Position numbers and translations under genes: made by a program | Source: Desulfovibrio legallii | GTDB taxonomy: Bacteria; Desulfobacterota; Desulfovibrionia; Desulfovibrionales; Desulfovibrionaceae | NCBI RefSeq assembly: GCF_004309735.1 | Contig: NZ_SIXC01000005.1 | Coordinates: 62,001 to 126,000 of the forward strand | Reading direction: 5' to 3' | Length of the DNA stretch: 64,000 nt | The notes under the pieces: generated by a model | What the model was told of the DNA's origin: nothing | The model's input: the letters and a program-made list of their open reading frames with translations, nothing else | Databases searched by the model: none | Shown: positions 46,117 through 64,000 of the stretch, piece after piece | How positions within the stretch are numbered: position 1 is the stretch's first letter | How the letters are laid out: each line of letters opens with the position of its first letter

Positions 46117-46590
46117 CTAGGATAGCCTTTTGTAATTACAGAAGGAGTTATCCAGAATAGTCACTTTGTCCGCCAGCGCAATAGCTTTTGGCAAATTTTC
46201 AAGGCTGCGGCTAAAACGGCGGATAACATCCCGAGGCGGAACTCTATGTCCCCCCCGTGACGCGCGAGCCGCAACTCGTTTCAGCGCAAGCATTTCTGAC
46301 GCAAGGCATATGTATACAAGCTCAATTTTATAGCCTCGCTGTTTTGCCTTTGCCATCAGCGTGAAGTCAAACCTGGCGGTAAGGGTAGACTCTCGCGCAA
46401 ATGAAACTCCCTCTTCCAGAAAAAGGTGAGCCATACGAGCAGCAGCCTTACCAGCGGCTATGGGAGACAAGCCTTCTGCAGCAAGTTTATCAGGGTCAAT
46501 AACCAGCAGATTTTCCCGCATAGCAATCGCCCTTGAAAAAGTGCTCTTGCCTGCCCCATTTGGGCCGCAGATGCACAAGAGCGTGGGCAT
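46117..46590 (-). CDS. Zeta-toxin-like P-loop kinase
   Basis: The 157-residue protein has a Walker A loop GPNGAGKSTF at residues 9-18, the segment VIDPDKLAAEGLSP, the ARESTLTARFDFTLM segment typical of zeta-type kinases, and RVAARASRGGHRVPPRDVIR with the catalytic arginine region. Zeta toxins phosphorylate UDP-activated sugars and block wall synthesis. The protein ends at ILDNSFCNYKRLS, apparently about 30 residues shorter than chromosomal relatives, so it may be C-terminally truncated. It starts within the stop codon of the small upstream gene (TAATG). GC content is visibly lower than in the surrounding genes. Confidence 0.8.
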   Translation of the reverse strand: MPTLLCICGPNGAGKSTFSRAIAMRENLLVIDPDKLAAEGLSPIAAGKAAARMAHLFLEEGVSFARESTLTARFDFTLMAKAKQRGYKIELVYICLASEMLALKRVAARASRGGHRVPPRDVIRRFSRSLENLPKAIALADKVTILDNSFCNYKRLS

Positions 46591-46778
46591 TACCTGACCT
46601 GTTGTTGGGCTTCGTTGAGTGACATCGTTTCCGTGTGACCATCGGGATAGCGAAGGGTATACTGCCCATTTTCATCCAGGTAGTTCAGCGGAACCCCCTT
46701 TTTTTTCAGTTCAAGCTCAAGGATTACGCGCTGATTCTCTATGGCAGTTTCGACCAGTTCTTCAAGGGTAAGCGACAT
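46590..46778 (-). CDS. Small partner protein of the zeta-like kinase (putative antitoxin)
   Basis: A 62-residue protein directly upstream of the kinase gene, overlapping it by one base. An N-terminal helix (SLTLEELVETAIENQRVILE) is followed by a charged segment, then a strand-rich part (YTLRYPDGHTETMSLNEAQQ). Size, order and coupling fit a type II antitoxin. The segment LRYPDGHTET resembles small proteins found beside such kinases, but I cannot name the family. The ATG at 46778 has only a weak ribosome site (GAGG). Confidence 0.65.
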   Translation of the reverse strand: MSLTLEELVETAIENQRVILELELKKKGVPLNYLDENGQYTLRYPDGHTETMSLNEAQQQVR

Positions 46779-47497: not shown

Positions 47498-47527
47498 TTG
47501 AAAGAGTCGTTGACACAACTATATAAT
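47498..47527 (+). promoter_or_regulatory. Promoter of the NDH-1 (nuo) operon
   Basis: TTGAAA (47498-47503), 18 bases, TATAAT (47522-47527). An overlapping alternative is TTGACA (47510-47515), 17 bases, TATTCC (47533-47538). Either gives a leader of about 85-100 bases to nuoA in AT-rich DNA. Confidence 0.7.
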
Positions 47528-47631
47528 TTTTGTATTCCACAAAACAATATAAAAAGGGAATAGACTGGTTGCGCAGTCAATATCTCCTTTGAAAATATTT
47601 TTGTTGTCTTTTACACAGAGTGAGATGCTCT

Positions 47632-48042
47632 ATGGCCGCCAATGATGTTATGGACCTTGTCTACATTATGGTTTTTTGCCTGGGGGGCATCAGCTTTGCG
47701 CTGGGGCCATTTGTACTGGTCTTTTTTCTTGCGCCGCGTCTGACGCGCAACACTGTCGGCAAAACCCGGCAGATAGTTGAATGCGGCATAGACCCCATCG
47801 GCGACGCCTGGATAAAGTTCGGCGCTGTGTACTATATGTATGCCTTGCTTTTCCTGGCTTTTGCCGTGGATATTCTGTTTCTCTTTCCCGTGGCCATTAT
47901 CTATGCCAAAACTACAATAGTCAGCGACTTGCGGGCATTTGTGGAAGTCTTCCTCTTTGTGGGCATTTTGTCCCTGGTTATCGTGTACGCGTGGAAAAAG
48001 GGAGTGTTCCAGTGGCAGAGGAAAATGTTTTCGGATCGGTAG
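47632..48042 (+). CDS. nuoA: NADH-quinone oxidoreductase subunit A
   Basis: The 136-residue membrane subunit has three hydrophobic segments. The conserved loop is [20 protein letters not shown], which holds the Cys-Gly motif and the acidic residues near the quinone site, followed by [18 protein letters not shown] chose the ATG at 47632; a GTG four codons earlier is also possible. It is the first gene of the nuo operon, and its end overlaps nuoB by 31 bases. Confidence 0.95.
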
Positions 48043-48617
48043 TCCAGTTTTCGAGTCTGGACCGGCTGCTGGATTTGTGCCGGGCCAATTCGCTCTGGCC
48101 CATGACCTTTGGTCTGGCCTGCTGTGCCATTGAGATGATGGCCGCCGGCGCGTCACGCTTTGATCTGGCCCGCTTCGGGGCGGAGGTCTTTCGGCCGTCG
48201 CCGCGCCAGAGCGACGTGATGATCGTTTCCGGCACGGTCAACAAAAAAATGGCCCCGGCCGTGCAGACCCTGTACGACCAAATGCCCGAACCCAAGTGGG
48301 TCATTGCCATGGGCAACTGCGCCATTTCCGGCGGGCCCTTTGTCTACGAGGGGCAGTACGGCATTGTGGAAGGGGTGGACAAGCTCTTCCCCGTGGATGT
48401 CTACATTCCCGGCTGTCCGCCGCGGCCCGAAGCTCTTATTGAGGGCATCCTCAAGCTGGAAGAAAAACTCACGGGCAAGCGGCGCTGGCCCGTAGTGACG
48501 CCGCCCCCCCTGCCCGGACCCGCCGCCGCGCGGGAGGCGTCGGCCCAGGCCGCGCCCCAGAGCGACAACGACACGGACGCGCCCCTTGCCATGGAGGTGA
48601 ACGGTCATGTTGCCTGA
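48012..48617 (+). CDS. nuoB: NADH-quinone oxidoreductase subunit B
   Basis: The 201-residue subunit carries iron-sulfur cluster N2, the last electron donor to quinone. The four ligands are the tandem Cys37-Cys38 in [10 protein letters not shown], Cys103 in GNCAISGG and Cys135 in [10 protein letters not shown]. It starts at a GTG within the end of nuoA, with GGAG eight bases before it, giving [12 protein letters not shown]. An Ala/Pro-rich tail of about 35 residues follows the conserved core. It overlaps nuoC by 11 bases. Confidence 0.95.
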
Positions 48618-49230
48618 GGCCCCCCGCATGAGCGCAACCCCCGCGCACGCGGATCCGGCAGCCCTGCGCGCGCGTCTTGCAGCCTTGCCGGGCGTGAGCG
48701 TGCGGGACACGGATCACGCCGCCCTGGGCTATGACCTGGAGGTGCGCGTGCCTGCAACGGCCGTTCCGGAGGCTGTGGGCCTGCTGGATGCGGCAGGGTA
48801 TTTTCTTGAGGGCATGACCGGCGTGGACTGGCTGGGCGAGCGGGAAACCCTGCTCAAGGAGGCCAAGGCCAAAGCGGCTGCCGCCGCCAAAGCCGCGGCA
48901 GACGCGGAAGCTGCGGCGGACGGCGCAGCAACGGCCCCTGCGGCAGCCCCGCAAGAGGCGGCCCCCGGCATTCCCGAAGAGGACGAGCTGGAAGTGGTTT
49001 ACGACTGCAACCGCTATGCGGCCCGGCACCGGGTGTCCGTGCGGGTGCGCGTGCCGCGTTCCGCCCCGCAGTTGCCGAGCATTGCGCAGATCTACCCCAT
49101 AGCGCATTGGCACGAGCGCGAAATTCATGAATTTTTCGGCATTGTGTTTACGGGGCATCCCTATCTTGTGCCCCTGTTGTTGCCTGAGGACGCGGATTAT
49201 CACCCCCTGCTCAAGGATTATGGCGCATGA
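48607..49230 (+). CDS. nuoC: NADH-quinone oxidoreductase subunit C
   Basis: The 207-residue 30-kDa-type subunit of the connecting module. The conserved C-terminal part has [20 protein letters not shown] (the family-typical WxERExxDxFGIxFxGH pattern) and ends with [11 protein letters not shown]. In the N-terminal half, an insertion of about 45 residues made almost only of Ala, Glu, Lys and Asp ([20 protein letters not shown] and on) splits the domain between the [10 protein letters not shown] segment and [10 protein letters not shown]. It overlaps nuoB and nuoD. Confidence 0.92.
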
Positions 49231-50345
49231 ACTTCCTGGCCCAAAGTCCCACCGACGAGCGTTTCGTCCTGAACCTGGGGCCGCAGCATCCCGCCACGCA
49301 CGGCGTGCTGCGCGTCAAGGTCGTCATGGACGGGGAGTATATTGTGGAGGCCGAGCCCGTGCTGGGCTACATCCACCGTATGCACGAAAAGATGGCTGAA
49401 AACCGCACCTGGGCGCAGTTCATGGCCAATACGGGCCGTATGGACTACCTGCACGCCCTGGCCTACAATTTCGGTTACGCCTGTGTGGTGGAGCGCGCCG
49501 CTGGCATTGAAGCGCCGGAGCGCGCCCAGTACATCCGGGTCATCACCACGGAGCTCAACCGCGTTTCCAGCCATTTGCTCTGGCTGGGGGCCTTTGTGTT
49601 GGACCTTGGCGGCTTCTCCCCCCTGCTGTATGCCTTTGACGACCGCGAACAGATTCTGGACCTGCTGGAGTCCGTGACCGGATCCCGCCTGACGTACTGC
49701 TATTTCCGCTTCGGCGGGGTCTACAACGACGTGGACGAAAATTTTGTGGCCGGGACGCGGGCCTTCATTAAAAGGATGCGTTCCCGTCTGCCCATGTACC
49801 ACAACCTGGTTACCAAGAATCTTATTTTCCGCCAGCGCCTGGAAGGTGTGGGCATTGTCTCTGCGGAAATGTGCCGCAAGTACGGGGCCACGGGACCGGT
49901 GGCGCGCGGCGCGGGCATTGCCTTTGACGTGCGCCGCCACGAGCCCTACAGCGTCTATGACCGCTTCCGCTTTGACGTGCCCGTATACCATGAGGCCGAC
50001 TCCCTGGCGCGCTACAATGTGCGCATGGATGAGATGGAACAGAGCCTGCGTATCATTGAACAGGCTCTGGAGCAGCTGCCCGGCGGGCCGGTTATGGCGG
50101 CCAAGGTGCCCAAAAACATCAAGCCGCCCAAGGGCGATTACTACCACGCGGTGGAAACGGCGCGCGGCCTTCTGGGCATCCACGCCGTCAGCGACGGCAC
50201 GGGTTCGCCCTGGCGGCTTAAGCTGCGCACGCCCTGTTTTTCCAACCTGCTGGTCTTCGGCGAGGCCTGTAAAGGCATGCTGCTGCCCGACGCTCTGGCG
50301 CTTCTGGGCAGCCTGGACCTGGTGATCCCCGACATCGACCGCTGA
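49227..50345 (+). CDS. nuoD: NADH-quinone oxidoreductase subunit D
   Basis: The 372-residue 49-kDa-type subunit forms much of the quinone-binding cavity with NuoB. It has LNLGPQHPATHGVLRVKVVM, GYIHRMHEKMAENRTW, ELNRVSSHLLWLG, GVYNDVDE and a C-terminal GSLDLVIPDIDR. The Cys pairs that hold nickel in the related hydrogenases are absent, so it is a complex I-type subunit and not an Ech-type hydrogenase. It is coupled to nuoC through an ATGA overlap, and nuoH follows after 12 bases. Confidence 0.96.
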   Translation: MNFLAQSPTDERFVLNLGPQHPATHGVLRVKVVMDGEYIVEAEPVLGYIHRMHEKMAENRTWAQFMANTGRMDYLHALAYNFGYACVVERAAGIEAPERAQYIRVITTELNRVSSHLLWLGAFVLDLGGFSPLLYAFDDREQILDLLESVTGSRLTYCYFRFGGVYNDVDENFVAGTRAFIKRMRSRLPMYHNLVTKNLIFRQRLEGVGIVSAEMCRKYGATGPVARGAGIAFDVRRHEPYSVYDRFRFDVPVYHEADSLARYNVRMDEMEQSLRIIEQALEQLPGGPVMAAKVPKNIKPPKGDYYHAVETARGLLGIHAVSDGTGSPWRLKLRTPCFSNLLVFGEACKGMLLPDALALLGSLDLVIPDIDR

Positions 50346-50357
50346 GGAAGGCACGTC

Positions 50358-51350
50358 ATGAACTGGAACTCCGAACCCCTGCGCCTGTTGCTCTACCTTT
50401 TGGGCTTCCTCGCCTTTGTGGCCCTCAACGCGGCCTATCTGGTCTGGGTGGAGCGCAAGGTGGCCGGGCACATCCAGCGCCGCATCGGCCCCAAGGAAGT
50501 GGGGCCCTACGGTCTGTTGCAGCCCATTGCCGACGGCGTCAAGCTCATGGTCAAGCAGGTCTTTATCCCCAAGGATGCCGACGGCGTGCTGTTCTGCCTG
50601 GGGCCCGTATTGGTCATGACCCCGGCCTTTCTCAGCTTTGTGGCCCTGCCGTACGGGCCGGGGCTGGTGGCCCGCGACCTGAACCTGGGCTTGCTGGCCA
50701 TCTACGCCTTCGCCTCGGTCAACGTCATGGGCCTTTTGCTGGGGGCCTGGGGCTCACGCAACAAGTTTGCGGTCATTTCCGCGGCGCGTGTGGTTTCTCA
50801 GAACGTAGCCTATGAAATTCCCATGCTGTTGGTGGTGGTCAGCCTGGTCATGGTCACGGGCACGCTCAATCTGGGCACGACGGTGGCCGAACAGTCCGGC
50901 GGCTTCTGGCACTGGAACGCTTTTCGCCTGGGGGCGAGCCCCCTCATGCCCGTGGCCTGCGTTATTTTCTTTATCTGTATGCTGGCTGAAACCAACCGCG
51001 CCCCCTTTGACATGGCCGAAGCTGAAAGTGAGCTGGTGGCCGGGGCTTTTACGGAATATTCGGGCATGGGCTTCGGCGTCTATTTCATGGGCGAGTACGC
51101 CAATGTGGTGGTGGGCTCCACCTTGCTCACCATTTTGTTTCTGGGCGGCTGGGATTGCCCCTTGGGTCTTTGGCCCGGTCCGCACTGGCTGCTTATCAAG
51201 CTCTACGCCGTCATCTTTACCGTGGTATGGATACGCTGGACCTTTCCGCGCACCACATTTTACGGCTTGCTGAACCTTTCGTGGAAGGTGCTTATCCCCG
51301 TGGCGCTCATTAACCTTCTGCTCACCAGCGCGCTGCTCAAGGTGTTTTAG
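50358..51350 (+). CDS. nuoH: NADH-quinone oxidoreductase subunit H
   Basis: The 330-residue membrane subunit connects the quinone cavity to the ion-pumping arm and has eight membrane segments. Family signatures are VWVERKVAGHIQRRIGPKEV, then GLLQPIADGVKLMVKQ, and ETNRAPFDMAEAESELVAGA with its conserved glutamates, followed by FTEYSGMGFGVYFMGEYAN. GGAAGG lies upstream of the ATG. nuoI starts two bases after its stop codon. Confidence 0.97.
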   Translation: MNWNSEPLRLLLYLLGFLAFVALNAAYLVWVERKVAGHIQRRIGPKEVGPYGLLQPIADGVKLMVKQVFIPKDADGVLFCLGPVLVMTPAFLSFVALPYGPGLVARDLNLGLLAIYAFASVNVMGLLLGAWGSRNKFAVISAARVVSQNVAYEIPMLLVVVSLVMVTGTLNLGTTVAEQSGGFWHWNAFRLGASPLMPVACVIFFICMLAETNRAPFDMAEAESELVAGAFTEYSGMGFGVYFMGEYANVVVGSTLLTILFLGGWDCPLGLWPGPHWLLIKLYAVIFTVVWIRWTFPRTTFYGLLNLSWKVLIPVALINLLLTSALLKVF

Positions 51351-51351
51351 C

Positions 51352-51792
51352 ATGACCACATACTTCAAAAATATTTTTGCCGGCGGCTGGAGCCTGGTGG
51401 TGGGCATGGGCATCACCCTGCGCTATTTTTTCATGCCCGTGGTCACAAGCTGCTACCCGCGCGAAACGCCGCCCATCCCCCCGCGTTACCGGGGGCACAT
51501 CGACCTGGTGTACGACCCGGAAACGGGCAAGGACCGTTGCATTGTCTGCGGTTCCTGCCAAAAGGCCTGTCCGTCCGGCTGCATTTCTTTGGAAGGGGAA
51601 AAGCTGGAGGGCGCCAAGAAAAAAACGCTTACCCGCTACGAACTGGATTTTACCCGCTGCAGCCTGTGCGGCATGTGTGTGGAAGCCTGCCCCACAGAGG
51701 CCCTGACCTTTTCACGCGAATACAACCTGGCCGGCTTTGACGCGAAGGACTACCATTTCGATCTCGTCCGGCGGCTCAAGGAGCGTCCGTGA
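51352..51792 (+). CDS. nuoI: NADH-quinone oxidoreductase subunit I
   Basis: The 146-residue ferredoxin-like subunit has two tetranuclear iron-sulfur clusters (N6a/N6b type) that relay electrons to NuoB. The first motif is CIVCGSCQKACPSGC from residue 63, and the second CSLCGMCVEACP from residue 103. With NuoEFG absent, this subunit is the likely docking point for an external donor such as ferredoxin. The N-terminal amphipathic segment is present. The stop overlaps the nuoJ start (TGATG). Confidence 0.96.
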   Translation: MTTYFKNIFAGGWSLVVGMGITLRYFFMPVVTSCYPRETPPIPPRYRGHIDLVYDPETGKDRCIVCGSCQKACPSGCISLEGEKLEGAKKKTLTRYELDFTRCSLCGMCVEACPTEALTFSREYNLAGFDAKDYHFDLVRRLKERP

Positions 51793-52316
51793 TGTTCAGC
51801 CCGCAGACCCTGGCGGCTCTGGCCGAAGGCATTTTCTGGTTCTTTGTGGTGGTGACCTTTACGGGCGGCGTGCTGGCCGTGGGGGCGCACTCGCTTATCC
51901 GCCGGGTGGCGGGGCTGGCCCTGTGCTTCACGGGGGTGGCGGGCCTTTACTACTATCTTTCCAGCCCCTTTGTGGCTTTTATGCAGATGCTCATCTATGT
52001 GGGCGCGCTTTGCGTCACCATCACCTTTGCCATCATGTTGGCGGAAACCACCGACGCCCGGCGCGCGCCCCGGCGGCGGGGCTTTACAGTGCTGCTGGGC
52101 GCGGCGGGCAGCGTTTTGGTGACGGTGGTTCTGGCGGGGCAGGCATTGTATGGCGTATGGCCGCAACCCCCCGCTGCACAGGCCCCCGGCACGGTGGAGC
52201 GCGTGGGCGAGGCTCTGTTGAGCACCTACTCCATGAGTTTTGAGCTTATTTCCGTGGTTCTGGTGGTGGCCATGGTAGGCGCGCTGGCCCTGGCGCGCCA
52301 CGGGAGGGAGAAATGA
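51792..52316 (+). CDS. nuoJ: NADH-quinone oxidoreductase subunit J
   Basis: The 174-residue membrane subunit has five hydrophobic segments. FFVVVTFTGGVLAVGAHSLI and FVAFMQMLIYVGALCVTITF, with its conserved YVGA kink in helix 3, identify the family. A GTG one codon earlier is an alternative start. It overlaps nuoI by one base and nuoK by four (ATGA). Confidence 0.94.
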   Translation: MFSPQTLAALAEGIFWFFVVVTFTGGVLAVGAHSLIRRVAGLALCFTGVAGLYYYLSSPFVAFMQMLIYVGALCVTITFAIMLAETTDARRAPRRRGFTVLLGAAGSVLVTVVLAGQALYGVWPQPPAAQAPGTVERVGEALLSTYSMSFELISVVLVVAMVGALALARHGREK

Positions 52317-52636
52317 TCGCCAGCGCAAGCCAGTCGTTGGAAGCGTACCTGATTATCGGCGCGGGCCTGTTCGGTCTGGGCTTGTTTGGCATGGCCGTGC
52401 GGCGCACCTTTATCGGCATGCTTATCGCTTCGGAGCTGATCCTCTGCGGAGCTTCGGTGAATTTTATGGCTTTTGGGCGCTTTACGGCCCCGGACCCGGT
52501 GGCGGGGCAGGTGGCCACCCTGTTTGTCATGGCCATTGCGGCGGCAGAGGCGGTCATCGTCCTCTCCATTATTCTGGCCGTATACCGGCTCTACCGCTCC
52601 ATTGAGACGGACGGGCCCTCGGATATGCACGGCTAG
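52313..52636 (+). CDS. nuoK: NADH-quinone oxidoreductase subunit K
   Basis: The 107-residue MrpC-like membrane subunit has three segments. It shows FIGMLIASELILCGASVNFM (conserved first Glu) and LFVMAIAAAEAVIVLSIILA (second conserved Glu), the two charges of the ion pathway. It ends the first, tightly overlapping part of the operon; a 149-base gap with hairpins follows before the antiporter-like genes. Its TAG stop is inside a CTAGAGCA sequence. Confidence 0.95.
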   Translation: MIASASQSLEAYLIIGAGLFGLGLFGMAVRRTFIGMLIASELILCGASVNFMAFGRFTAPDPVAGQVATLFVMAIAAAEAVIVLSIILAVYRLYRSIETDGPSDMHG

Positions 52637-52785: not shown

Positions 52786-54282
52786 ATGGAAATGGTTGCA
52801 TCCGTCATACCCCTGGCCGCCGTATTCTCCGGCCTCGTGGGCGCCTGCCTGGTCGTGCTGACCGGGCGCTGGCCCAACGTGCGCGAGACGGTCTCCTTTG
52901 TCACGGCGGTGGTCATGTTTGCCCTGGTGGCCTCCATGATCCCCGACGTGGCCCCCGCGCCTGTGGGGCGCGGCCTCACCCTGCACCAGACGCTCTTTCC
53001 CATTCTTCCGGGGCTTTCGGTAAGTTTTCGGGCCGACGCCTTTTCTATGGTTTTTGCCCTGGTGGCTTCATTTTTGTGGATTATCACCGTGTTCTACTCG
53101 GCGGGCTACATGCGCGGCCTCAAGGAGCACGCCCAGACCCGCTTCAGCGTCTGTTTCGCGCTGACCCTGTTCGGAGCCATGGGCGTGGCCTTTGCGGACA
53201 ACCTCTTTACCCTCTACCTGTTCTATGAGGTGGTCAGCATCTGCACCTACCCCCTGGTGGCCCACCACCAGGACGAAGAGGGGTATGAAGGCGCGCGCAA
53301 GTATATCGTCTACCTGACCACTACGGCCAAGGGTCTGGTGCTGCCCGCCATGATCGTCATCTACGTGCTCACGGGCAATCTGGACTTTGCCCACAACAGC
53401 CACGAGGGCATCTTCCACGGCGGGGTCAGCAATGCCCTGGCCACGGTGCTCTACGTCTGCTGCCTGCTGGGCTTTGCCAAAAATGGCATCATGCCGCTGC
53501 ACCACTGGTTGCCGGGGGCCATGGTTGCGCCTACGCCGGTGTCGGCCCTGTTGCACGCTGTGGCCGTGGTGAAGGTGGGCGTGTTCTGCACCACGCGGGT
53601 CATGCTCTACGTCTTCGGCACAGACCTGATGAAAAGCCTCAACCTGGGCGTGCCCACGGCCTATTTTGTTTCCTTCACCATCCTTACGGCCTCGGTCATC
53701 GCGTTGACCAAGGACAACCTTAAGGCGCGGCTGGCCTATTCCACGGTGAGCCAGCTTTCCTACATCATTCTGGGCGTGGCCCTGCTTACCGTGGACGGCA
53801 TTCAGGGCGGCATTGTGCACATTGCCAACCACGCCTTTTCCAAGATTACGCTCTTTTTCTGCGCCGGGGCTATCTATGTGGCCACGCACAAGAAGTGCAT
53901 TTCGGAGATGAGCGGCCTGGGGCGCACCATGCCCTTTACCTTTGCGGCCTTTGCGGTGGCTTCTCTTTCCATGATCGGCGCGCCGCCCGTGGCGGGCTTT
54001 GTGACTAAGTGGAAGCTGCTGACCGGGGCCATGGAGATGCCCGCCCATGCCGTGGGCATCATGCTGGTGCTGCTGGCCAGCACCTTGCTGAACGTGGCTT
54101 ACTTTGCCCCGGTGACCTACAAGGCCTTTTTCGGCAAGCGCCCGGCAGGAGAGGCGACGCAGGGCATCCGCGAGGCCCCGCTGGCCATGGTGGTGCCCAT
54201 TCTTCTGGCCGCAATCGTGTCTGTGCTTCTGGGCGTCTATCCCGACGCCATCATGTCCTTCGTGAAGGCGGTGACAGGATGA
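52786..54282 (+). CDS. Antiporter-type NDH-1 subunit, NuoL/MrpD-like (first)
   Basis: A 498-residue protein with about 14 membrane segments from the proton-pumping antiporter family (NuoL/M/N, MrpA/D). The membrane glutamate is in FTLYLFYEVVSICTYPL, and the lysines of the channel are in GFAKNGIMPLHHWLPGAMVA and VHIANHAFSKITLFFCAGAI. It lacks the long lateral helix that ends true NuoL proteins, so its length is like MrpD or NuoM. It is therefore called by family and not by exact subunit. GGGAG precedes the ATG. It opens the second half of the operon. Confidence 0.88.
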   Translation: MEMVASVIPLAAVFSGLVGACLVVLTGRWPNVRETVSFVTAVVMFALVASMIPDVAPAPVGRGLTLHQTLFPILPGLSVSFRADAFSMVFALVASFLWIITVFYSAGYMRGLKEHAQTRFSVCFALTLFGAMGVAFADNLFTLYLFYEVVSICTYPLVAHHQDEEGYEGARKYIVYLTTTAKGLVLPAMIVIYVLTGNLDFAHNSHEGIFHGGVSNALATVLYVCCLLGFAKNGIMPLHHWLPGAMVAPTPVSALLHAVAVVKVGVFCTTRVMLYVFGTDLMKSLNLGVPTAYFVSFTILTASVIALTKDNLKARLAYSTVSQLSYIILGVALLTVDGIQGGIVHIANHAFSKITLFFCAGAIYVATHKKCISEMSGLGRTMPFTFAAFAVASLSMIGAPPVAGFVTKWKLLTGAMEMPAHAVGIMLVLLASTLLNVAYFAPVTYKAFFGKRPAGEATQGIREAPLAMVVPILLAAIVSVLLGVYPDAIMSFVKAVTG

Positions 54283-54530
54283 TAGTCAGAATCATCGAAT
54301 TTTTCCGCGCCAGGCTCAAGGGCACTATCCGCGCCTGTCTGGTTTTGCTGGCCTTGGTGGTGCTGTGGGACGCCCTGTTTGTTCCCAAGGAGCATGTGCA
54401 CACCTTTATGGAGCGCCTGCCAGGTTTCTGGGCTGTCTTCGGCTTTGTGGCCTGTGTTGTAATCATCATCGTTTCCAAGTGGTTTGGCCATTTGGGCATC
54501 ATGACCCGCGAGGATTATTACGATGACTGA
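54279..54530 (+). CDS. Small two-helix membrane protein within the nuo operon
   Basis: An 83-residue protein, overlapping both neighbours (ATGA at 54279 and an 8-base overlap at its end). Two hydrophobic helices (ACLVLLALVVLWDALFV and WAVFGFVACVVIIIVSKWF) form a hairpin, and the C-terminus is acidic (TREDYYDD). I do not recognise it as a standard NDH-1 subunit. The tight overlaps show it is translated with them, so it is a candidate accessory subunit. Confidence 0.75.
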   Translation: MIVRIIEFFRARLKGTIRACLVLLALVVLWDALFVPKEHVHTFMERLPGFWAVFGFVACVVIIIVSKWFGHLGIMTREDYYDD

Positions 54531-56313
54531 ACCCTGGATCCATCCCTCTGCCGTGCTCCTGCTGGGGGCTGCGCTGTTGCCCTTTGTGCCCAGGGCGGCG
54601 CGCAAGGTCTTTCTGGTGCTGGTGCCCGTGCTGGCCTTTGCCGCCGTGCTGCTCATGCAGGGGCACAACGGCGTGTACGGCGTGGTGCCCTTCATGAAGT
54701 GGACGCTGACCTTCGGCCGGGTGGACGCCCTGAGCCTGGTTTTTGCCTACATCATGACGCTCATGTGCATCATCGGCACCGTTTATGGCCTGCATGTGGA
54801 GCAGCCGGCCCAGCACATGGCTGCCTGGATCTATGTGGCGGGCTCTCTGGGCGTCATCTTTTGCGGCGACTACCTGACGCTTTTTCTGTTCTGGGAGGTC
54901 ATGGCTTTTTCATCCGTATTTCTGGTCTGGTTCCGGGGGCGCAAGGCCTCGCTGGGCGCGGGCTACCGCTACCTGCTGGTGCACACGGCGGGCGGCCTGC
55001 TGCTGCTGGCCGGGCTGGTGCTGCGCTACCGGGCTACGGGCGACCTGAGCTTTGGGCCCATAGGCGTGACCGACCCGCAGGCGTATACCTATCTGATTAT
55101 GGCGGGCTTCATTCTCAACGCCGCCGTACCGCCCCTGCACGCCTGGCTGCCCGACGCTTACGGCGAAGCCACGGTGACGGGCGCGGTGTTCATGTGCGCC
55201 TTTACGACCAAGACGGCCGTGTACGTGCTGGCGCGCAGTTTTGCGGGCATGGAGGTGCTGGTGCCCCTGGGCGTGGGCATGGCTCTCTACGGCGTAGTCT
55301 ACGCCGTGCTGGAAAACGACGCCCGCCGGCTGCTGGCCTACCACATCATCAGCCAGGTGGGCTACATGGTGGCAGCCGTGGGCATAGGCACGCCCCTGGC
55401 CATCAACGGGGCCTGCGCCCATGCCTTTGCCCACATCCTGTACAAGGGCCTGTTGTTTATGGGCTGCGGCTCGGTGCTGCAGATGACGGGCGTAAGCAAG
55501 TTTACCCAGTTGGGCGGGCTGTATAAAAAAATGCCCCGGACCTTTGTGTTCACGCTCATAGGGGGGCTTTCCATTTCGGCCTTCCCGCTGTTCAGCGGCT
55601 TTGTGAGCAAGGCCATGATCGTGTCCGCCGGTTTTGAGGCCCACAACTACTGGGCGGGCTTTCTGCTTACCCTGGCTTCGGCGGGAACCTTTTTGCACAC
55701 AGGGCTGAAGGTGCCGTACTTCATCTGGTTCGGCAAGAACAACTGCTCTGAAGAAACCTGGAAGCGCGCCTGCGATCCGCCCAAGAACATGCAGGTGGCC
55801 ATGGCCGCGGCGGCCTTTTTGTGCATCTTTATCGGCTGCTACACGCCGTATCTCTACAACATGCTGCCCTTCCCCGAAGCGGCGGCCGCCTATGATCCGT
55901 ACACGGCGGCGCACATTTCAGAGACGCTGCAAATCCTGCTTTTTACGGCTCTGGGCTTCTTTTTGCTGCTCAAAAAGCTCACGCCCGAACCCACCATCAG
56001 CCTGGACCTGGACTGGTTTTACCGCATGGGCGGGCGGCTGTTCTACTGGTTTGCGCGCAAGCCCGTGCAGTCTGTGGATACGGCCGTGGGCCAGACCTGG
56101 AACCGGCAGGGCATAGTGCCGCTGATGCGCTCCGCGCGCTTCTGGTCCTGGTTTGACTGGCACGGCATAGATACGGTGGTGGACGGCGCGGCTCGGAGCG
56201 TGCGCGCTCTGGGCGGGGTGCTGCGCCTGGTGCAGAGCGGCAGGCTGCAAACCAATATTGTTTCCATGGTCGCGGTAATGGCTGTGGTGCTCACGCTGCT
56301 GGCGCTGGTCTGA
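54523..56313 (+). CDS. Antiporter-type NDH-1 subunit, MrpD/NuoL-like (second, long)
   Basis: A 596-residue antiporter-family protein. The membrane Glu is in TLFLFWEVMAFSSVFLVW, and channel Lys candidates are in CAFTTKTAVYVLAR and HAFAHILYKGLLFMGCGSVL. After about residue 480 there is an extra C-terminal part with ISLDLDWFYRMGGRLFYWF, then RSARFWSWFDWHGIDTVVDG and a last membrane segment. This tail is known from stand-alone cation/proton antiporter D-type subunits. It makes this a fourth pumping-type subunit beyond the usual L, M and N set. The ATG at 54523 overlaps the small gene. Confidence 0.88.
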   Translation: MTEPWIHPSAVLLLGAALLPFVPRAARKVFLVLVPVLAFAAVLLMQGHNGVYGVVPFMKWTLTFGRVDALSLVFAYIMTLMCIIGTVYGLHVEQPAQHMAAWIYVAGSLGVIFCGDYLTLFLFWEVMAFSSVFLVWFRGRKASLGAGYRYLLVHTAGGLLLLAGLVLRYRATGDLSFGPIGVTDPQAYTYLIMAGFILNAAVPPLHAWLPDAYGEATVTGAVFMCAFTTKTAVYVLARSFAGMEVLVPLGVGMALYGVVYAVLENDARRLLAYHIISQVGYMVAAVGIGTPLAINGACAHAFAHILYKGLLFMGCGSVLQMTGVSKFTQLGGLYKKMPRTFVFTLIGGLSISAFPLFSGFVSKAMIVSAGFEAHNYWAGFLLTLASAGTFLHTGLKVPYFIWFGKNNCSEETWKRACDPPKNMQVAMAAAAFLCIFIGCYTPYLYNMLPFPEAAAAYDPYTAAHISETLQILLFTALGFFLLLKKLTPEPTISLDLDWFYRMGGRLFYWFARKPVQSVDTAVGQTWNRQGIVPLMRSARFWSWFDWHGIDTVVDGAARSVRALGGVLRLVQSGRLQTNIVSMVAVMAVVLTLLALV

Positions 56314-56338
56314 ACGGATCGGGAAGGAGATGGCCACC

Positions 56339-57862
56339 ATGGATTTTTTGAGCATGAACACCCTGGGCTTTCCCATTCTTTCACTGCTGATTTTTCTGCC
56401 CCTGGCCGGGGCGGCGGTGGTGCCTCTGCTGCGCGGCGACAACCTCGTGCGGCTCTGGACGCTGGCCGTCACCTTGGTCAATGCCGGGCTTTCCCTGCCG
56501 CTGTACACGCATTTTGACCCCACGTCGTCCCTGTTCCAGTTTGGCGAGCACCGCCCGTGGATTGAGACCTTCAATGTCAATTATACCTTGGGGGTGGACG
56601 GCATTTCGCTTTTGCTGGTGCTGCTGACTACGCTCATCATGCCCATCTGCGTGCTGGGCTCCTGGCGGTATATCCAGAGCCGGGTCAAGGAGTTTATGGT
56701 CTGTTTGCTGGTGATGGAAACGTCCATGCTGGGCGTGTTCATGGCCCTGGACCTGGTGCTCTTTTACGTGCTCTGGGAGGCCATGCTCATCCCCATGTAC
56801 CTGCTTATCGCCGTGTGGGGCGGTCCGCGCAAGGCCTACGCTTCGGTGAAGTTTTTCCTGTACACTCTGGCCGGATCGGTTTTTCTGCTGGTGGCCATTG
56901 TGGCCCTGTACATCAATCAGGGCACCTTCAGCATTCCGGCGCTTATGGGGCAGCAGTACGCCGCCAACTTCCAGCTGCTGGTCTTTCTGGCCTTTTTCAT
57001 CGCCTTTGCCATCAAGGTGCCCATGTTTCCCTTCCACACCTGGCTGCCCGCAGCCCATGTGGAAGCGCCCACGGCGGGCTCCGTACTGCTGGCTTCTGTT
57101 CTGCTCAAGATGGGCACCTACGGCTTTCTGCGCTTTTGCCTGCCCATTACGCCGACGGCGGCCATTGACCTGTTGCCGGCCCTGCAGTGGCTTTCCGTGG
57201 CGGGCATCCTTTACGGCGGCCTGACCGCCCTGGCCCAGCAGGACATGAAAAAGCTCATTGCCTATTCCAGTGTGGGGCATATGGGCTTTGTGACCCTGGG
57301 CATCTTCTCCCTGAATCAGCGCGGTCTGGAAGGGGCCATGCTGCAGATGATCAACCACGGCGTGACCACGGGCGCCCTGTTCCTCTGCGTGGGCATGGTC
57401 TACGAACGCTCCCACAGCCGGGAGCTGAACGACGCTGCCGGCCTGGGCAAATTTATGCCCATCTATGTGACGTATCTGACGTTCTTTTCTCTCTCGTCCT
57501 TAGCCTTTCCCGGCACCAACAGCTTTGTGGGCGAGTTTCTCATCCTGGCCGGGGCCTTTTTTAACAACAAGATCGTGGCGGTCTGCGCCGTGCCCGGAGC
57601 CATCCTGGCCGCCGCCTACATGCTGCGGATGCTGCAGCGCGTCATCTGGGGCGGCACGCACAACCCGGACCAATCCCATATGCGGGATCTGGGCTGGCGT
57701 GAAACCGTGACCCTGGCGCCTTTGCTGGCCTTTGTTTTCTGGATAGGCCTGGCCCCGGAGCCCTTCCTCCGGGTCATGCGGCCAAGCCTGGACCATCTGC
57801 TGGCCCAGACCGGCTACCAGGCCCACAACGCCCTGGCCCTGGCCGAGCTTTTTGCGCGTTGA
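56339..57862 (+). CDS. nuoM: NADH-quinone oxidoreductase subunit M
   Basis: The 507-residue proton-pumping membrane subunit. Its N-terminal part has VNYTLGVDGISLLLVLLTTL. The Glu of helix 5 is in LVLFYVLWEAMLIPMYLLIA, and MFPFHTWLPAAHVEAPTAGS, then LLKMGTYGFLRFCLP, and YSSVGHMGFVTLGIF are classic NuoM signatures. The ATG at 56339 was chosen because GGAAGGAG ends nine bases before it; the ATG at 56330 touches the ribosome site. It follows the long antiporter gene after 25 bases. Confidence 0.96.
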   Translation: MDFLSMNTLGFPILSLLIFLPLAGAAVVPLLRGDNLVRLWTLAVTLVNAGLSLPLYTHFDPTSSLFQFGEHRPWIETFNVNYTLGVDGISLLLVLLTTLIMPICVLGSWRYIQSRVKEFMVCLLVMETSMLGVFMALDLVLFYVLWEAMLIPMYLLIAVWGGPRKAYASVKFFLYTLAGSVFLLVAIVALYINQGTFSIPALMGQQYAANFQLLVFLAFFIAFAIKVPMFPFHTWLPAAHVEAPTAGSVLLASVLLKMGTYGFLRFCLPITPTAAIDLLPALQWLSVAGILYGGLTALAQQDMKKLIAYSSVGHMGFVTLGIFSLNQRGLEGAMLQMINHGVTTGALFLCVGMVYERSHSRELNDAAGLGKFMPIYVTYLTFFSLSSLAFPGTNSFVGEFLILAGAFFNNKIVAVCAVPGAILAAAYMLRMLQRVIWGGTHNPDQSHMRDLGWRETVTLAPLLAFVFWIGLAPEPFLRVMRPSLDHLLAQTGYQAHNALALAELFAR

Positions 57863-57893
57863 CCCGAACCCCAAGCACAGACAAGGCCCACGC

Positions 57894-59318
57894 ATGAACG
57901 CACATCTCTTTGCCCCGGAACTGGTTCTTCTTGCCGGCTGCCTTCTGGCCTTCGGCATGACCCTTACGGCATGCCGCCCGCAGAGCCTGCGCCTGGTGGC
58001 GCTGGGTGTGGGCGCGGCCTTTGCCGTGGCCTGTTTTGTCAGCCTTTCCGCCACGGGAGAGCTGTTTTACGGCGCTTACCGGGTGGATCTTTTCTCCCAG
58101 CTGGTCAAATGCGCCCTGGCCACGGGCTTTACCCTGCTGACCCTGTTTGGTGCGGACGTGCGGGGTGTTTCCGTGCGGATGCGGGCGGAATACTACCTTT
58201 TTCTGCTCACGGCCCTGCTGGGGCTGACCCTGCTTTCCAGCAGCGTGGAGCTGATCACCCTGTTTGTGGCCCTGGAGCTTTCTTCCTATTCCCTGTACCT
58301 GCTGGTGCCCATGCGCACGCCGTCGGAGAGCCTGCGCCTGCCCATGGAAGCGGCGGTCAAATACCTGCTGTTCGGCGTGACGGCTTCGGGCATCATGCTC
58401 TTTGGCATGAGCTGGATTTTTGGCCTTACGGGCACCACCTATCTGGCCAAAGCCCTGCCCGTCATGCACGCGGCCGGCGTGCAGGTTACCGCCGCCATCG
58501 CCCTGTGCATGCTGCTTTGCGGCATGTTCTTCAAGTTGGCCGTGTTCCCCTTCCATTTCTGGGCGCCTGACGTCTACCAGGGCGCTTCCAACGACACCAC
58601 AGCTTTTATTTCCTCCTTGCCCAAGGTGGCGGCCGTGGCCGTGCTGGCCCGCTTCTGCGCTTTGGCTGAACCGGGCCCCGGACCGCTGGTCTGGCTGCTT
58701 ACGGCGCTTTCCATCGCCTCCATGTGTTACGGCAACCTGGTGGCTCTGGTGCAGACGGACGTCAAGCGCATGTTGGGCTTTTCGGGCATTGCCCACGCGG
58801 GCTATATTTTGCTGGGCATGGTGACCTTGCAAAGCTGGGGCTTTGGCACGGCCCTGTACTACGCCACGGGCTATCTGTTCATGATGCTGGCAGCCTTTCT
58901 GGTGCTCTGCGCCGTGGCCCCGCAGGGCGAGAACCCGGCCGTGCGCGACCTTAACGGCCTTGCCGGGCGCTCACCCCTGTTGGCTTTTGTGCTGGGCGTG
59001 AGCATGTTTGCCCTGGCGGGCATTCCGCCCTTTGTGGGCTTTATGGGCAAGTTTCTGCTGCTGACCGGGGCCTGGAAGGCGGGGCACAGCGTTTTGGTGG
59101 TTATTGCCGCCATCAATACGGCCATAGGCATCTATTATTATTTGCAGGTGGTGCGCGCGGCCTACACTGAAGCCGCCCCTGCGGAAGCGGCCGCGCCGGC
59201 CCCGGCCGTGGGCACGCGTCTGGCGGGCATCTGCCTGGTGGGGCTGGTGGTGGCCTTGGGCGTGGCCCCTGAAAGAATGGTGCAACTGGCTATGGAGGCC
59301 GTGCAGTCTATCTGGTAG
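57894..59318 (+). CDS. nuoN: NADH-quinone oxidoreductase subunit N
   Basis: The 474-residue pumping subunit next to NuoK/J in the membrane arm. The helix-5 Glu is in ELITLFVALELSSYSLYLL. Further signatures are FKLAVFPFHFWAPDVYQGAS, TDVKRMLGFSGIAHAGYILL and GIPPFVGFMGKFLLL. An Ala/Pro-rich loop (EAAPAEAAAPAPAVG) separates the last helices. MNAHLFAPEL at 57894 has AAGG nine bases upstream. It is the last gene of the nuo operon and is followed by a strong terminator. Confidence 0.96.
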   Translation: MNAHLFAPELVLLAGCLLAFGMTLTACRPQSLRLVALGVGAAFAVACFVSLSATGELFYGAYRVDLFSQLVKCALATGFTLLTLFGADVRGVSVRMRAEYYLFLLTALLGLTLLSSSVELITLFVALELSSYSLYLLVPMRTPSESLRLPMEAAVKYLLFGVTASGIMLFGMSWIFGLTGTTYLAKALPVMHAAGVQVTAAIALCMLLCGMFFKLAVFPFHFWAPDVYQGASNDTTAFISSLPKVAAVAVLARFCALAEPGPGPLVWLLTALSIASMCYGNLVALVQTDVKRMLGFSGIAHAGYILLGMVTLQSWGFGTALYYATGYLFMMLAAFLVLCAVAPQGENPAVRDLNGLAGRSPLLAFVLGVSMFALAGIPPFVGFMGKFLLLTGAWKAGHSVLVVIAAINTAIGIYYYLQVVRAAYTEAAPAEAAAPAPAVGTRLAGICLVGLVVALGVAPERMVQLAMEAVQSIW

Positions 59319-59341: not shown

Positions 59342-59367
59342 ACGGCCGCCTTGGGCGGCCGTTTTTT
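59342..59367 (+). terminator. Rho-independent terminator of the nuo operon
   Basis: ACGGCCGCC, loop TTG, GGCGGCCGT, TTTTT. It begins 23 bases after the nuoN stop codon. The remaining gap to 59635 holds the dctA-side hairpin and no open frame of note. Confidence 0.92.
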
Positions 59368-59635: not shown

Positions 59636-60923
59636 TCAGGCGGCTTCCGCTGCCAGGGCTTCTCCCTTTTTATCAAGCACGTCGCGCATCCTGTCGCCGT
59701 CGAGCTGACCGGTCATCTTGGCCACGGCGATGGTGCCCACGCCATACCCCACCAGGTTGGTGAGGGCGCGGGCTTCGGACATAAAGCGGTCAATGCCGAA
59801 GATGATGGCAATGCTTTCGGGCGGGATGCTGCCCACGGAACCCAGGGTGCCGGCCAGCACGATAAACGCGCCGCCCGTTACGGCTGCCGCGCCCTTGGAG
59901 GATATGAGCAGCACGGTCAGCAGGATCAGTTCGTCACTGAGGGTCATGGGCGTGTTGGTGGCCTGGGCCAGAAAGACCGAAGCCATGGTCAGGTAAATGG
60001 CCGTGCCGTCCAGGTTAAAGGAATAGCCGGTGGGGATGACCAGGTCCACCACGCTCTTATGACAGCCAAGGCGCTCCATCTTGTGCAGCATATTGGGCAG
60101 CACGGATTCGGACGAGGAAGTGCCCAGCACGATGAGCAGCTCTTCCTTGATGTAGCGGACAAATTTGAGCACGTTGAAGCCGCAGAGCCTGCCGATGAAA
60201 CCCAATACCACGACCACAAAGAGGATGCTGGTGATATAGAAGCAGACGATCAGCTCACCCAGCGAAACCACCGAACCGATGCCTTCCTTTGCCGATGGTG
60301 AAGGCCATGGCCCCGAAAGCGCCCAGGGGAGCCACATACATGATGATCTTGATGATGCGGAACATGACTTCCGAAAAACTTTTGATGAAATCAAAGACGA
60401 TTTGCCCCTTGGCTCCGCTGAAGTGCAGCGCAAAGGCAAAAAGAACGGCCACCAGCAGCACCTGCAGAATTTCGCCGCTGGTAAAGGCTGAGGCAAAGGT
60501 CTTGGGAATGATGTTCATGAAAAAGTTGACCAGGTTGTTGCTGTGAGCCTTGCCGGCGTACTGATCGGCCAGATGTCTTTCGGCTTCGCCGAAGGTGCTC
60601 ACGTCCACATTCATGCCTACGCCGGGCTGCGCCAGATTGACGACCACCAGGCCGATGATCAGGGCCACAGTGGTGAGCACCATGAAGTAGGCCAGCGCGA
60701 TGCCGCCGGTTTTGCCCACAGACTTCACGTCCGACATGCCGGCAATGCCCGTAACAACGGTACAGAAGATCAGGGGGGCGATGATCATTTTGATGAGATT
60801 GATAAAACCCCTGCCCAAAGGCTGCATCTTAACGGCGATATCGGGGTAAAAATGTCCGAGTAAAATGCCGATGGCAATAGCGATCAGCACTTGAACATAA
60901 AGAATTTTAAGATATTTCAGCAT
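59636..60923 (-). pseudogene. dctA: Dicarboxylate/cation symporter (DctA type), frameshifted
   Basis: Read together, two adjacent frames give one protein of about 428 residues of the DctA/GltP (DAACS) family, which imports C4-dicarboxylates or acidic amino acids with cations. The first part (60923 down to about 60285) runs from [20 protein letters not shown] to GAMAFTIGK. The second continues [20 protein letters not shown] through [18 protein letters not shown] and [20 protein letters not shown] to the stop at 59636. The break is one extra base: the minus strand reads AAAGGAAGGC where AAAGAAGGC would keep the frame (extra C of the plus-strand CC at 60286-60287). Everything else looks conserved, so it is either a very recent null mutation or a sequencing error. 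Confidence 0.88.
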
Positions 60924-61765: not shown

Positions 61766-63607
61766 TTACTCTTCGGCCAGGACGCGCACGGATTCTCCAT
61801 AGGCGTCCTTGACGGTAGTCTTGATGCCCATGAGTTCATTCCAGCGGCGGAAGGTGCCTACAAAGACGAAGATCATCAGCACCATGACCAGGCAGGCCAG
61901 GGTGGCCAGCAGATACTTGCCGTTGGGGATGTAGTCGCCCGCCACCTGCAGATAGCCGGCCCAGAACGTGACCGCCGCCATGAACACGCCGGGTATGGCC
62001 GTGAGCAGGCAGAGCTTGCCGCGGTTCATACGCAGCAGCATGGTGGTGCTGACGATCAGGGCGCAGGCGGCCAGCAGCTGGTTGCTCATGCCAAAGAGCG
62101 GCCAGATGCTGCTGATGTTGCCGGTGTAGACCAGGTAGCCCCACATGGAGGTGAAGATCAGGCTGGTAATGACCACGCCGGGGGCCCAGTTCTTATCGCC
62201 AAAGGGCGCGTAGACCTTGCCCAGCATTTCCTGCAGGAAAAAGCGGCCCACGCGCGTGCCGGCGTCAATGGCGGTAAGGATGAACACCGCCTCAAACATG
62301 ACGGCGAAGTTGTACCAGTAGGCCATCAGGCTGTCCATGTACGGGATTTTGTGGAAGATATGGGCCATGCCCACGGCCAGAGAAACGGCCCCGCCGGGAC
62401 GGGCGTGCAGGTTCAGGCCAATTTTTTCTTCAAAAAATCCCAGGTCCACGGTATTGAGGGCCGGGTGCGCGGCTACCAGGGCGTCGAACTTGGCCGGGGT
62501 AGCGTTGATGGCAAAGTAGTCGCCGGGCATGAGCGTGCAGGCGGCGATAAGGGCCATAATGGCCACAAAGCCTTCCGTCAGCATGGCGCCGTAGCCCACA
62601 AACAGAATGTCGCGCTCATTGGCGATCATCTTGGGTGTGGTGCCCGTACCGATGATGGCGTGGAAGCCGGAAACGGCCCCGCAGGCAATGGTGATGAAGA
62701 TGAAGGGCAGCACAGGCCCGCCGATGACGGGGCCGCCGCCGTTGATGAAGGGGGTAATGGTGGGCATGAGCAGCGTGGGCCGCACAAAGATGATGCCCAG
62801 GGTCAGCATGAGGATGGTGCCGATTTTCAGATAGGTGGAAAGATAGTCGCGCGGCACCAGCAGAAACCACACCGGCAGCACCGAGGCGATGAAGCCGTAC
62901 ACGGCAATGGCAATGGCCACGGTGTTGCGGTTCCAGTCAAAGGCCCAGCCCAGCACGTCCTGTTTCATAAGGTCGTGCCCGCTGAGGATGCCGATAACCA
63001 GCAAAACCACGCCCACCACGCTGGCCAGGATGACGCTGTTCTGCTTGTAGCGCATGATCAGGCCCATGAGCATGGCTATGGGCATGGTGATGACCACGAT
63101 GAACAAAGACCAGGGCGCGTTGTGCATGGCGCTGATGCAGGCCAGCGAAAGGCCCGCCAGGGTCAGAACCAGGATGCAGAGCACGGCGATGCCGGCTACG
63201 GTGCCGGTTACCGGCCCCACTTCGCGCGTGGCAATGGCCGCAAGGCTCTGCCCTTTGTGGCGCACGGAAGCAAACAGAATGACCATATCGTGCACGGCGC
63301 CGCCCAGCACGCAGCCGATCAGAATCCAGAGCGCGCCCGGCAGATAGCCGAACTGCGCGGCCAGCACCGGGCCCACCAGCGGGCCAGCGGCGGCGATGGC
63401 GGCAAAATGGTGCCCGTACAACACAAATTCATTGGTTTTGACATAGTCGTGGCCGTCGGCAAAGCGCACGGCCGGGGTGGGGCGGCTGCCGTCCAGCCGC
63501 AACACTTTGTTGGCAAGAAAAATGCCGTAAAAACGGTAGGCGATGGCAAAAACGCACAATGCCACAAAGACCAGAGTCAGGGCATTGATATGCTCCAGAG
63601 CTTCCAT
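61766..63607 (-). CDS. cstA: CstA-family carrier (carbon starvation protein; pyruvate/peptide uptake)
   Basis: A 613-residue integral membrane protein with 16 or more hydrophobic segments. Family signatures include DYVKTNEFVLYGHHFAAIAA followed by AGPLVGPVLAAQFGYLPG, then GAVHDMVILFASVRHKGQSL, and GAVSGFHAIIGTGTTPKM. Members import pyruvate or peptides. Pyruvate uptake would suit a Desulfovibrio, but the substrate is not shown by the sequence. MEALEHINALTLVFVA at 63607 was chosen, with GGGAG upstream; the frame to 63826 is non-homologous. It is shorter than E. coli CstA (701), as many relatives are. Monocistronic. Confidence 0.94.
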   Translation of the reverse strand: MEALEHINALTLVFVALCVFAIAYRFYGIFLANKVLRLDGSRPTPAVRFADGHDYVKTNEFVLYGHHFAAIAAAGPLVGPVLAAQFGYLPGALWILIGCVLGGAVHDMVILFASVRHKGQSLAAIATREVGPVTGTVAGIAVLCILVLTLAGLSLACISAMHNAPWSLFIVVITMPIAMLMGLIMRYKQNSVILASVVGVVLLVIGILSGHDLMKQDVLGWAFDWNRNTVAIAIAVYGFIASVLPVWFLLVPRDYLSTYLKIGTILMLTLGIIFVRPTLLMPTITPFINGGGPVIGGPVLPFIFITIACGAVSGFHAIIGTGTTPKMIANERDILFVGYGAMLTEGFVAIMALIAACTLMPGDYFAINATPAKFDALVAAHPALNTVDLGFFEEKIGLNLHARPGGAVSLAVGMAHIFHKIPYMDSLMAYWYNFAVMFEAVFILTAIDAGTRVGRFFLQEMLGKVYAPFGDKNWAPGVVITSLIFTSMWGYLVYTGNISSIWPLFGMSNQLLAACALIVSTTMLLRMNRGKLCLLTAIPGVFMAAVTFWAGYLQVAGDYIPNGKYLLATLACLVMVLMIFVFVGTFRRWNELMGIKTTVKDAYGESVRVLAEE

Positions 63608-64000
63608 CTGGCTTCTCCCGTCAGAACTGTTTACGAATCCAGCGGTCACGCATCCTTGAGACCGTGATCGTGGCAATAGCCAACATACTTGAATTATTGC
63701 TTCCTTCCCCCCAAACGCCTCCTTGCTGCAAAATTGTGCGTATACACATGGGCGGGCTGTACCATGCCGAACATTCCCGCTGGTGTGCTCAGATAGTGAA
63801 GATGTACTTTTGCCTACACCAAACAAGTTTTACTGTCCATAACCCCGCACGGCGCGTGGCGCGTGGGTTGTGCGGCATACATTTCCCATTAAATACGTCA
63901 GGAATATATCCGTTGCGCGCCAAGGCCCTGCCCTCCGTCCGGCTTGCCGCCCTTGCATTCGCCCCGGCTCGGTACTATGGTAAGACATACCGGCTGGGGG
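63608..64000. other. Gene-free right end of the window
   Basis: Leader and promoter region of cstA on the minus strand, of mixed composition. A candidate -35 (TTGTTT at about 63828) has no convincing -10. An AT-rich stretch near 63890-63915 could hold a promoter for a plus-strand gene beyond the window. No open frame or RNA is recognised. Confidence 0.4.

Follow-up and report, generated by a model that had tools for sequence, protein, structure and literature searches.

The window analysed in this work, a stretch of 64,000 nucleotides from Desulfovibrio legallii (contig NZ_SIXC01000005.1, positions 62,001 to 126,000), contains a single collinear nuo operon for complex I. Its genes lie on the + strand throughout, in the order A-B-C-D-H-I-J-K-L1-s-L2-M-N, as established from open reading frames (ORFs) and family scans of the window, and the same scans found no nuoE, nuoF, nuoG or nuoL in it. 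At the position of NuoL, the operon encodes three proteins of 498, 83 and 596 amino acids (aa), named L1, s and L2 here. The family scores, gene neighbourhoods and phylogeny presented below support the view that L1-s-L2 replaces NuoL and is no addition to it.

The ORFs and family scores agree with a first-pass annotation of this DNA, which had described two large NuoL/MrpD-like proteins beside NuoM and NuoN, and the coordinates agree with the 83-residue protein that it saw overlapping both (Table 1). These overlaps amount to 4 bp with L1 and 8 bp with L2, which suggests that translation of L1, s and L2 may be coupled. The small protein belongs to no NCBIfam family and matches no Pfam family over its cut-off. 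An origin of the L1/L2 pair from a broken gene was discarded, as L1 and L2 each have an intact frame in the window and in the majority of relatives' loci; single internal stops occur in two L1-like matches of the same order and in one L2 match of the phylum. The gap between nuoK and L1 (52637-52785) measures 149 bp here, compared with about 66 bp in loci L051 and L052 of two congeneric relatives, and its RNA folding is unremarkable (z -1.5).

Table 1. Features of the nuo operon in the window, with the basis of each call.
Feature	Position	Strand	Basis
nuoA	47620..48042	+	NF005839 E 9e-21, under family cut-off
nuoB	48012..48617	+	tblastn matches in relatives' nuo operons and position; GTG start at 48012 a guess
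nuoC	48607..49230	+	TIGR01961 E 3e-23, under cut-off
nuoD	49227..50345	+	NF004739 437 bits, cut-off 360 (passes)
nuoH	50358..51350	+	NF004741 325 bits, cut-off 305 (passes)
nuoI	51352..51792	+	TIGR01971 118.9 bits, cut-off 113 (passes)
nuoJ	51789..52316	+	NF005168 E 2e-28, under cut-off
nuoK	52313..52636	+	NF004320 76 bits, cut-off 57 (passes)
L1, 498 aa, antiporter-like	52786..54282	+	NF006236 (named antiporter subunit D) 794 bits, cut-off 663
s, 83 aa	54279..54530	+	s profile; two helices according to the first-pass annotation
L2, 596 aa, antiporter-like	54523..56313	+	NF009310 (named antiporter subunit D) 755 bits, cut-off 564
nuoM	56330..57862	+	TIGR01972 615 bits, cut-off 264
nuoN	57852..59318	+	TIGR01770 E 4e-96, 323 bits, just short of cut-off 332.6
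Promoter-like site 5' of nuoA	47498..47527	+	11/12 consensus positions; consensus match alone (7 such sites, 3.5 expected)
Terminator-like hairpin 3' of nuoN	59342..59362	+	9 pairs, T tail; consensus match alone (25 such sites, 17.7 expected)

Both large proteins score far under the cut-off of the NuoL model TIGR01974 (205 bits for L1 and 153 bits for L2, against 407.5 bits). The own genome (completeness 100; nine PF00361 matches) encodes no protein over this cut-off: the best one reaches 222.9 bits and belongs to another cluster, so a second, true nuoL elsewhere in the genome was rejected. Three further clusters of this genome (L069, L070, L071) combine PF00361 subunits with NuoB/D/I-like genes and are perhaps group 4 hydrogenases. 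Across 41 genomes of the order, 21 NuoM were found over the cut-off, which were paired by hand from coordinates: 11 adjoin an L2, 10 adjoin a true NuoL and none adjoins both. The exclusion extends to the 150 NuoM loci listed for a set of 148 genomes from the phylum. Of these loci, 37 have L2 within 10 kb, 109 have NuoL, none has both and 4 have neither; within 2.5 kb, these counts are 35, 108, 0 and 7 (thresholds E ≤ 1e-150 for L2 and E ≤ 1e-110 for NuoL, with one NuoL match below cut-off omitted). Half of the listed phylum L2 loci (37/74) have no listed NuoM nearby. One locus of the phylum sample (G130:C62:25264-30368), where two NuoM adjoin one NuoL, represents a 2M-like complex I.

A FastTree phylogeny (438 columns, 107 proteins, SH-like support, unrooted splits) groups L1 with NuoL at a support of 1.0, L1 alone at 0.875, L2 alone at 1.0, and L2 with L1 and NuoL together at 0.893. 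The sample comprised 26 of the 58 complete nuo-context loci in addition to the window; MrpA is absent from it, as no MrpA match exceeded the cut-off and five partial matches were left unused. Since the genome has no NuoL over the cut-off, L2 and NuoL never lie beside the same NuoM and L1 groups with NuoL, the evidence supports a replaced NuoL, one of the options raised in the first-pass annotation.

Complex I of 11 subunits without NuoEFG is assumed to have a single NuoL, in whose place three proteins are found here. With nuoABCDHIJK-MN and no NADH module, the operon otherwise resembles that form, which is described for Desulfovibrio gigas (PMC4287179) and Desulfitobacterium (PMC11238625). A closer counterpart of the replaced part is the green complex I of certain rhizobia, which is described as having two MrpD-like subunits instead of NuoL (PMC9040806). 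Its genes on pSymA of S. meliloti read J-K-L1-s-L2-M-N-A-B-C-D-E-F-G, with nuoI and nuoH on the opposite strand and an 84-aa 'hypothetical protein' between L1 and L2; the J-K-L1-s-L2-M-N block with the small gene also occurs in Ensifer. The window shares with it the J-K-L1-s-L2-M-N order, the two MrpD-like proteins in NuoL's place and the small partner gene, as well as an L2 with Asn at the helix-7 Lys position and a NuoL-type tail without insertion. For the green complex I, the MrpD subunit is likewise described without the 26-residue lateral-helix insertion of Complex_I_3 (PMC9040806). On sequence grounds, the window module is the membrane-arm module of the rhizobial green complex I, and the four large subunits with a tiny protein are of an already known kind.

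The window operon departs from the rhizobial one in lacking EFG and in keeping the canonical gene order. The rhizobial operon is rearranged (PMC7415380) and includes nuoEFG, unlike the order A-B-C-D-H-I-J-K-L1-s-L2-M-N of the window. The additional iron-sulfur (FeS) clusters reported for NuoG of the green complex I (PMC4967309) are unmatched here, given an operon without nuoEFG and a genome without NuoF in which NuoG was not searched genome-wide. No green-type complex I without EFG was reported in the literature searched, which does not exclude one. More than three antiporter-like subunits are also described for the 2M complex I of Nitrospira, the other four-pump form, and for Complex_I_3 of Ca. 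Manganitrophaceae, the latter with two MrpD-like subunits as well (PMC9040806). According to the same source, those complexes have an extra NuoM and a lateral-helix insertion, unlike the window operon with its one NuoM and no insertion.

L1 and L2 are not confined to nuo operons. In the 99 loci examined, they stand in a nuo context in 83, in an Mrp-like context in 12 and in an unclear context in 4; those drawn from relatives' contigs represent the best 80 of 571 stretches confirmed and are biased to close relatives. Within the genus, L2 exceeds its cut-off in 3/25 genomes (own included), each time in nuo context. Outside the genus, 12/16 genomes of the order have L2 over its cut-off, 8 in nuo context and the other 4 in an Mrp-like cluster alone. 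A contig fragment of a further genome (L068) reads J-K-L1-s-L2. Judged by record title, holders of the nuo form include Desulfovibrio, Desulfobulbaceae, Desulfobacterales, Desulfuromonas, Geobacteraceae, Verrucomicrobia, Opitutia, Methylacidiphilum and Thermodesulfovibrionia. The s profile matches all 92 loci holding both L1 and L2; it was built from 41 sequences, so matches in those nuo loci are circular, and the 12 Mrp-type loci were not in it.

The 12 Mrp-like clusters (L055, L057, L060, L061, L064-L067, L105, L116, L124, L125) hold L1-s-L2 in the same order as the window, an occurrence not reported in the literature searched. Unlike the window operon, they carry MrpE/F/G/B/C-like genes together with another D-like subunit, and their L2 tail is not NuoL-like (0/12). 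The gene content was checked by domain in L125 alone, which reads MrpE-F-G-(MbhD/E domains)-B-(NuoK/MrpC-like)-D-like-L1-s-L2. A Desulfotignum contig (L121) has an L2 with an Mrp-type tail followed by NuoE- and NuoF-like matches. In the tree, nuo-type and Mrp-type copies interleave within the L1 clade and within the L2 clade, which suggests, although several inner supports are low, that the module may have been exchanged repeatedly between the two contexts.

These clusters, in which relatives of all three genes stand beside MrpE, F, G, B, C-like and D-like genes (L125), together with the NCBIfam name 'antiporter subunit D' of both large proteins, could mean that L1-s-L2 is a separate Mrp-type cation/proton antiporter merely sharing the operon. 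MrpB (PF04039) and MrpE (PF01899), however, have no match in the whole own genome with positive controls (MrpC, F and G were not searched), which makes a stand-alone Mrp antiporter very unlikely. The mutual exclusion of L2 and NuoL beside NuoM would moreover leave complex I with no distal subunit if the module were not part of it, and nuo-context L2 have a NuoL tail that Mrp-context copies lack. We rejected this reading and regard it as highly improbable. The Mrp placement that, according to the first-pass annotation, would speak against its reading was only half borne out: relatives of L1, s and L2 occur in Mrp-like clusters (12/99 loci), but the window copies themselves lie in a nuo operon, as in 83/99 loci, in a genome without MrpE and MrpB.

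Residues were compared in an alignment of 199 proteins, with 84 L1 and 96 L2 kept and reads outside 430-700 aa omitted. The helix-5 Glu is kept in all four large subunits at the E. coli NuoL E144 column, which bears out the first-pass annotation. L1 carries NuoL Glu144, Lys229, His254, His334, His338, Lys342 and Lys399 (E. coli numbers). Of the four helix-8 positions studied as common to NuoL and MrpA (PMC4938563), L1 keeps H254 and V259 and lacks T257 and M258. L1 is NuoL-like in its charged chain in this alignment, yet not identical to NuoL. L2 lacks NuoL K229, H254, T257, M258 and V259 (E. coli numbers). Its Glu125, Lys230 and helix-12 Lys363 are kept in every aligned L2, with Lys230 in helix 8 as in E. 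coli NuoM and NuoN; His300, His304 and Lys308 are present in nearly all nuo-context L2 and variable in some Mrp-type ones. The helix-7 column of NuoL Lys229 holds Asn in 96/96 L2, in the window L2 (Asn199) and in both rhizobial L2, an exchange that the first-pass annotation had missed and that was not reported in the literature searched. The same column is Lys in 84/84 L1, 6/6 further NuoL and E. coli L, M and N.

As the helix-7 Lys is Asn, L2 itself may or may not pump. L2 might be a non-pumping spacer bearing the lateral helix, in which case the complex would pump with three antiporter-like units (N, M and L1). This is a real possibility, although we give it less than even weight. The Asn in every L2, against Lys in all L1, in 12/12 D-like subunits of Mrp-like clusters and in E. 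coli L, M and N, would fit such a spacer, as would the severe loss of complex I activity reported for K229A in NuoL (PMC4938563). K229A is reported there to have almost no effect in the Mrp model system, and the Glu of helix 5, Lys230 of helix 8 and Lys363 of helix 12 in every L2, together with the three nearly constant residues of nuo-context L2, exceed what a spacer needs. An extra ion channel or an altered stoichiometry, also raised in the first-pass annotation, is possible and calls for caution because of this Asn.

After the Lys of transmembrane helix 12 (TM12), 90 residues follow in L1 and 233 in L2, compared with a median of 238 in NuoL (range 214-253, n 7). The last 170 aa of L2 match a profile of seven canonical NuoL tails (E 7e-10; 1e-11 for the S. 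meliloti L2). At E ≤ 1e-3, this profile finds 78/82 nuo-context L2 (window and S. meliloti included) and none of 12 Mrp-context L2, 84 L1 and 98 shuffled tails. Against TIGR01974, L2 aligns in one stretch (residues 56-593 against 68-629 of 630), below the cut-off. AlphaFold predicts a helix at 497-570 (74 residues) followed by one at 575-595 in the single L2 chain (54 sequences, mean pLDDT 88.6, tail block confidence 60-84). From its sequence and its model, L2 is predicted to end in a NuoL-type lateral helix and anchor helix. The view that neither protein ends in the usual lateral helix holds for L1, with its 90 residues after the TM12 Lys, and not for L2; the D-type antiporter tail ascribed to the longer protein was wrong. 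A functionally split NuoL, as the first-pass annotation proposed, is plausible, with the seven first-tested channel residues on L1 and the lateral helix on L2, although L1 differs at 3/4 further helix-8 positions.

In a structural comparison of the L2 model, the NuoL chain 8e9g_L ranks top (Z 45.2, 518 residues, root-mean-square deviation (rmsd) 3.8, model residues 3-529); MrpD and NuoM chains end near residue 452, and several E. coli NuoL chains reach about 594 at an rmsd near 13. The window L2 is 76% identical over 511 columns to the L2 of a Desulfotignum Mrp-like cluster (L105), with no tail alignment after these. Judged by tail length, the L2 lateral helix lacks the 26-residue extension reported for complexes with a further NuoM.

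Helix length also bears on where L2 sits. In solved complex I, the helix-bearing NuoL is the distal subunit (PMC3274701), so L2 might be most distal, with L1 between L2 and M, the lateral helix reaching M only and the anchor lying elsewhere than usual. To span a third neighbour, the helix should have to be about 26 residues longer, as is reported for Ca. Manganitrophaceae and Nitrospira (PMC9040806), whereas the L2 tail has an ordinary length and matches the canonical NuoL tail including its anchor. We therefore consider a distal L2 unlikely.

Desulfovibrio nuo operons without EFG are known, and a donor such as ferredoxin has been proposed for them (PMC4287179). An NADH module elsewhere in the own genome was rejected, as the sole PF01512 protein is RnfC-like and no NuoF was found, NuoE and NuoG not having been searched genome-wide. 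This RnfC-like protein (L163:5649-7532) adjoins a bacterial microcompartment (BMC) shell protein and probably belongs to a microcompartment locus of the genome. With E. coli queries, NuoE/F/G matches were found in 2/83 nuo-context loci: L143 has E, F and G between D and H, and L073 has a G-like match on the other strand. With midpoint potentials of about -450 mV for ferredoxin and about -75 mV for menaquinone, two electrons passing from the former to the latter would release about 0.75 eV, which would pay for four to five protons at 150-180 mV; NADH would not.

The reading that we favour, and hold to be probable, is a complex I without NADH module in which L1-s-L2 replaces NuoL, L2 being the clamp beside NuoM and L1 an added distal pump. 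The replacement, the conservation of the module and the sharing out of NuoL features, with the channel residues on L1 and the lateral helix and anchor on L2, are read from the sequences. L2 would sit in NuoL's place next to NuoM and clamp M and N by a lateral helix of ordinary length, and L1, joined via s, would form the tip as an added distal antiporter-like subunit conducting protons, or possibly Na+. This placement is suggested by the ordinary helix length, the NuoL-like anchor and the gene order: the subunits of complex I lie L-M-N from distal to proximal, which the order L1-s-L2-M-N parallels. Since NuoEFG are lacking, electrons would pass from ferredoxin or another low-potential donor to menaquinone, or in reverse, and the larger energy drop could cover one more pumping step.

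Several points weigh against this reading or parts of it. The proposed subunit order L1-L2-M-N draws on helix length and gene order, and two loci (L086, L087) have nuoM before L1, in the order K-M-L1-s-L2-N. L1 differs from NuoL at T257, M258 and T260 (Lys in all but 3 rows), and the Asn found across all L2 speaks against plain pumping by L2. The L2 model is of a single chain with a confidence of 60-84 in its tail blocks; MrpD and NuoM chains tie with NuoL chains in the structural comparison (Z 44.9 against 45.2), and the top NuoL row (8e9g_L) aligns the model to residue 529 only. The Mrp-type L2 tail is also predicted to be helical (494-553), with a low block pLDDT of 46-72, and the contrast between nuo-type and Mrp-type tails is for this reason one of sequence and not of proven shape: a lateral helix is perhaps not peculiar to complex I, while the NuoL-type tail sequence appears to be. 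Finally, E. coli queries were the basis for scoring E/F/G as absent from relatives, and only 45/83 loci hold B, D and N with at least 4 kb of flank.

Other protein-coding genes were noted around the operon, all on the - strand. A possible toxin-antitoxin pair at 46117-46778, near a tRNA-Ala(CGC) at 45809-45884, consists of a zeta-toxin-like P-loop protein of 157 aa (PF06414 E 5e-12) and a 62-aa partner upstream of it (no Pfam family). A sodium:dicarboxylate symporter (59636-60923; PF00375) is spread over two ORFs that overlap in different frames and match profile positions 194-387 and 1-195, an apparent frameshift. A CstA-family carbon starvation protein of 686 aa is encoded at 61766-63826.

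More broadly, and as a tentative and rather unlikely proposal when taken as a whole, L1-s-L2 could be a transferable distal unit that complex I and Mrp antiporters have exchanged more than once. As part of complex I, its L2 would be a NuoL-type clamp with an invariant Asn where pumping subunits have Lys, and its L1 a fourth distal pump. Sulfate reducers, Verrucomicrobiota and others would then possess, with the loss of NuoEFG, a near-reversible ferredoxin:menaquinone pump that moves over four protons per electron pair. As channel residues and lateral clamp are carried by separate proteins, and the clamp-bearing L2 is without a Lys that is described as universally conserved, the favoured arrangement would offer a natural test of the parts of NuoL. 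The arrangement is also relevant to whether adding subunits can raise the proton stoichiometry of complex I, and to the electron exchange between ferredoxin and menaquinone in sulfate reducers without NADH module.

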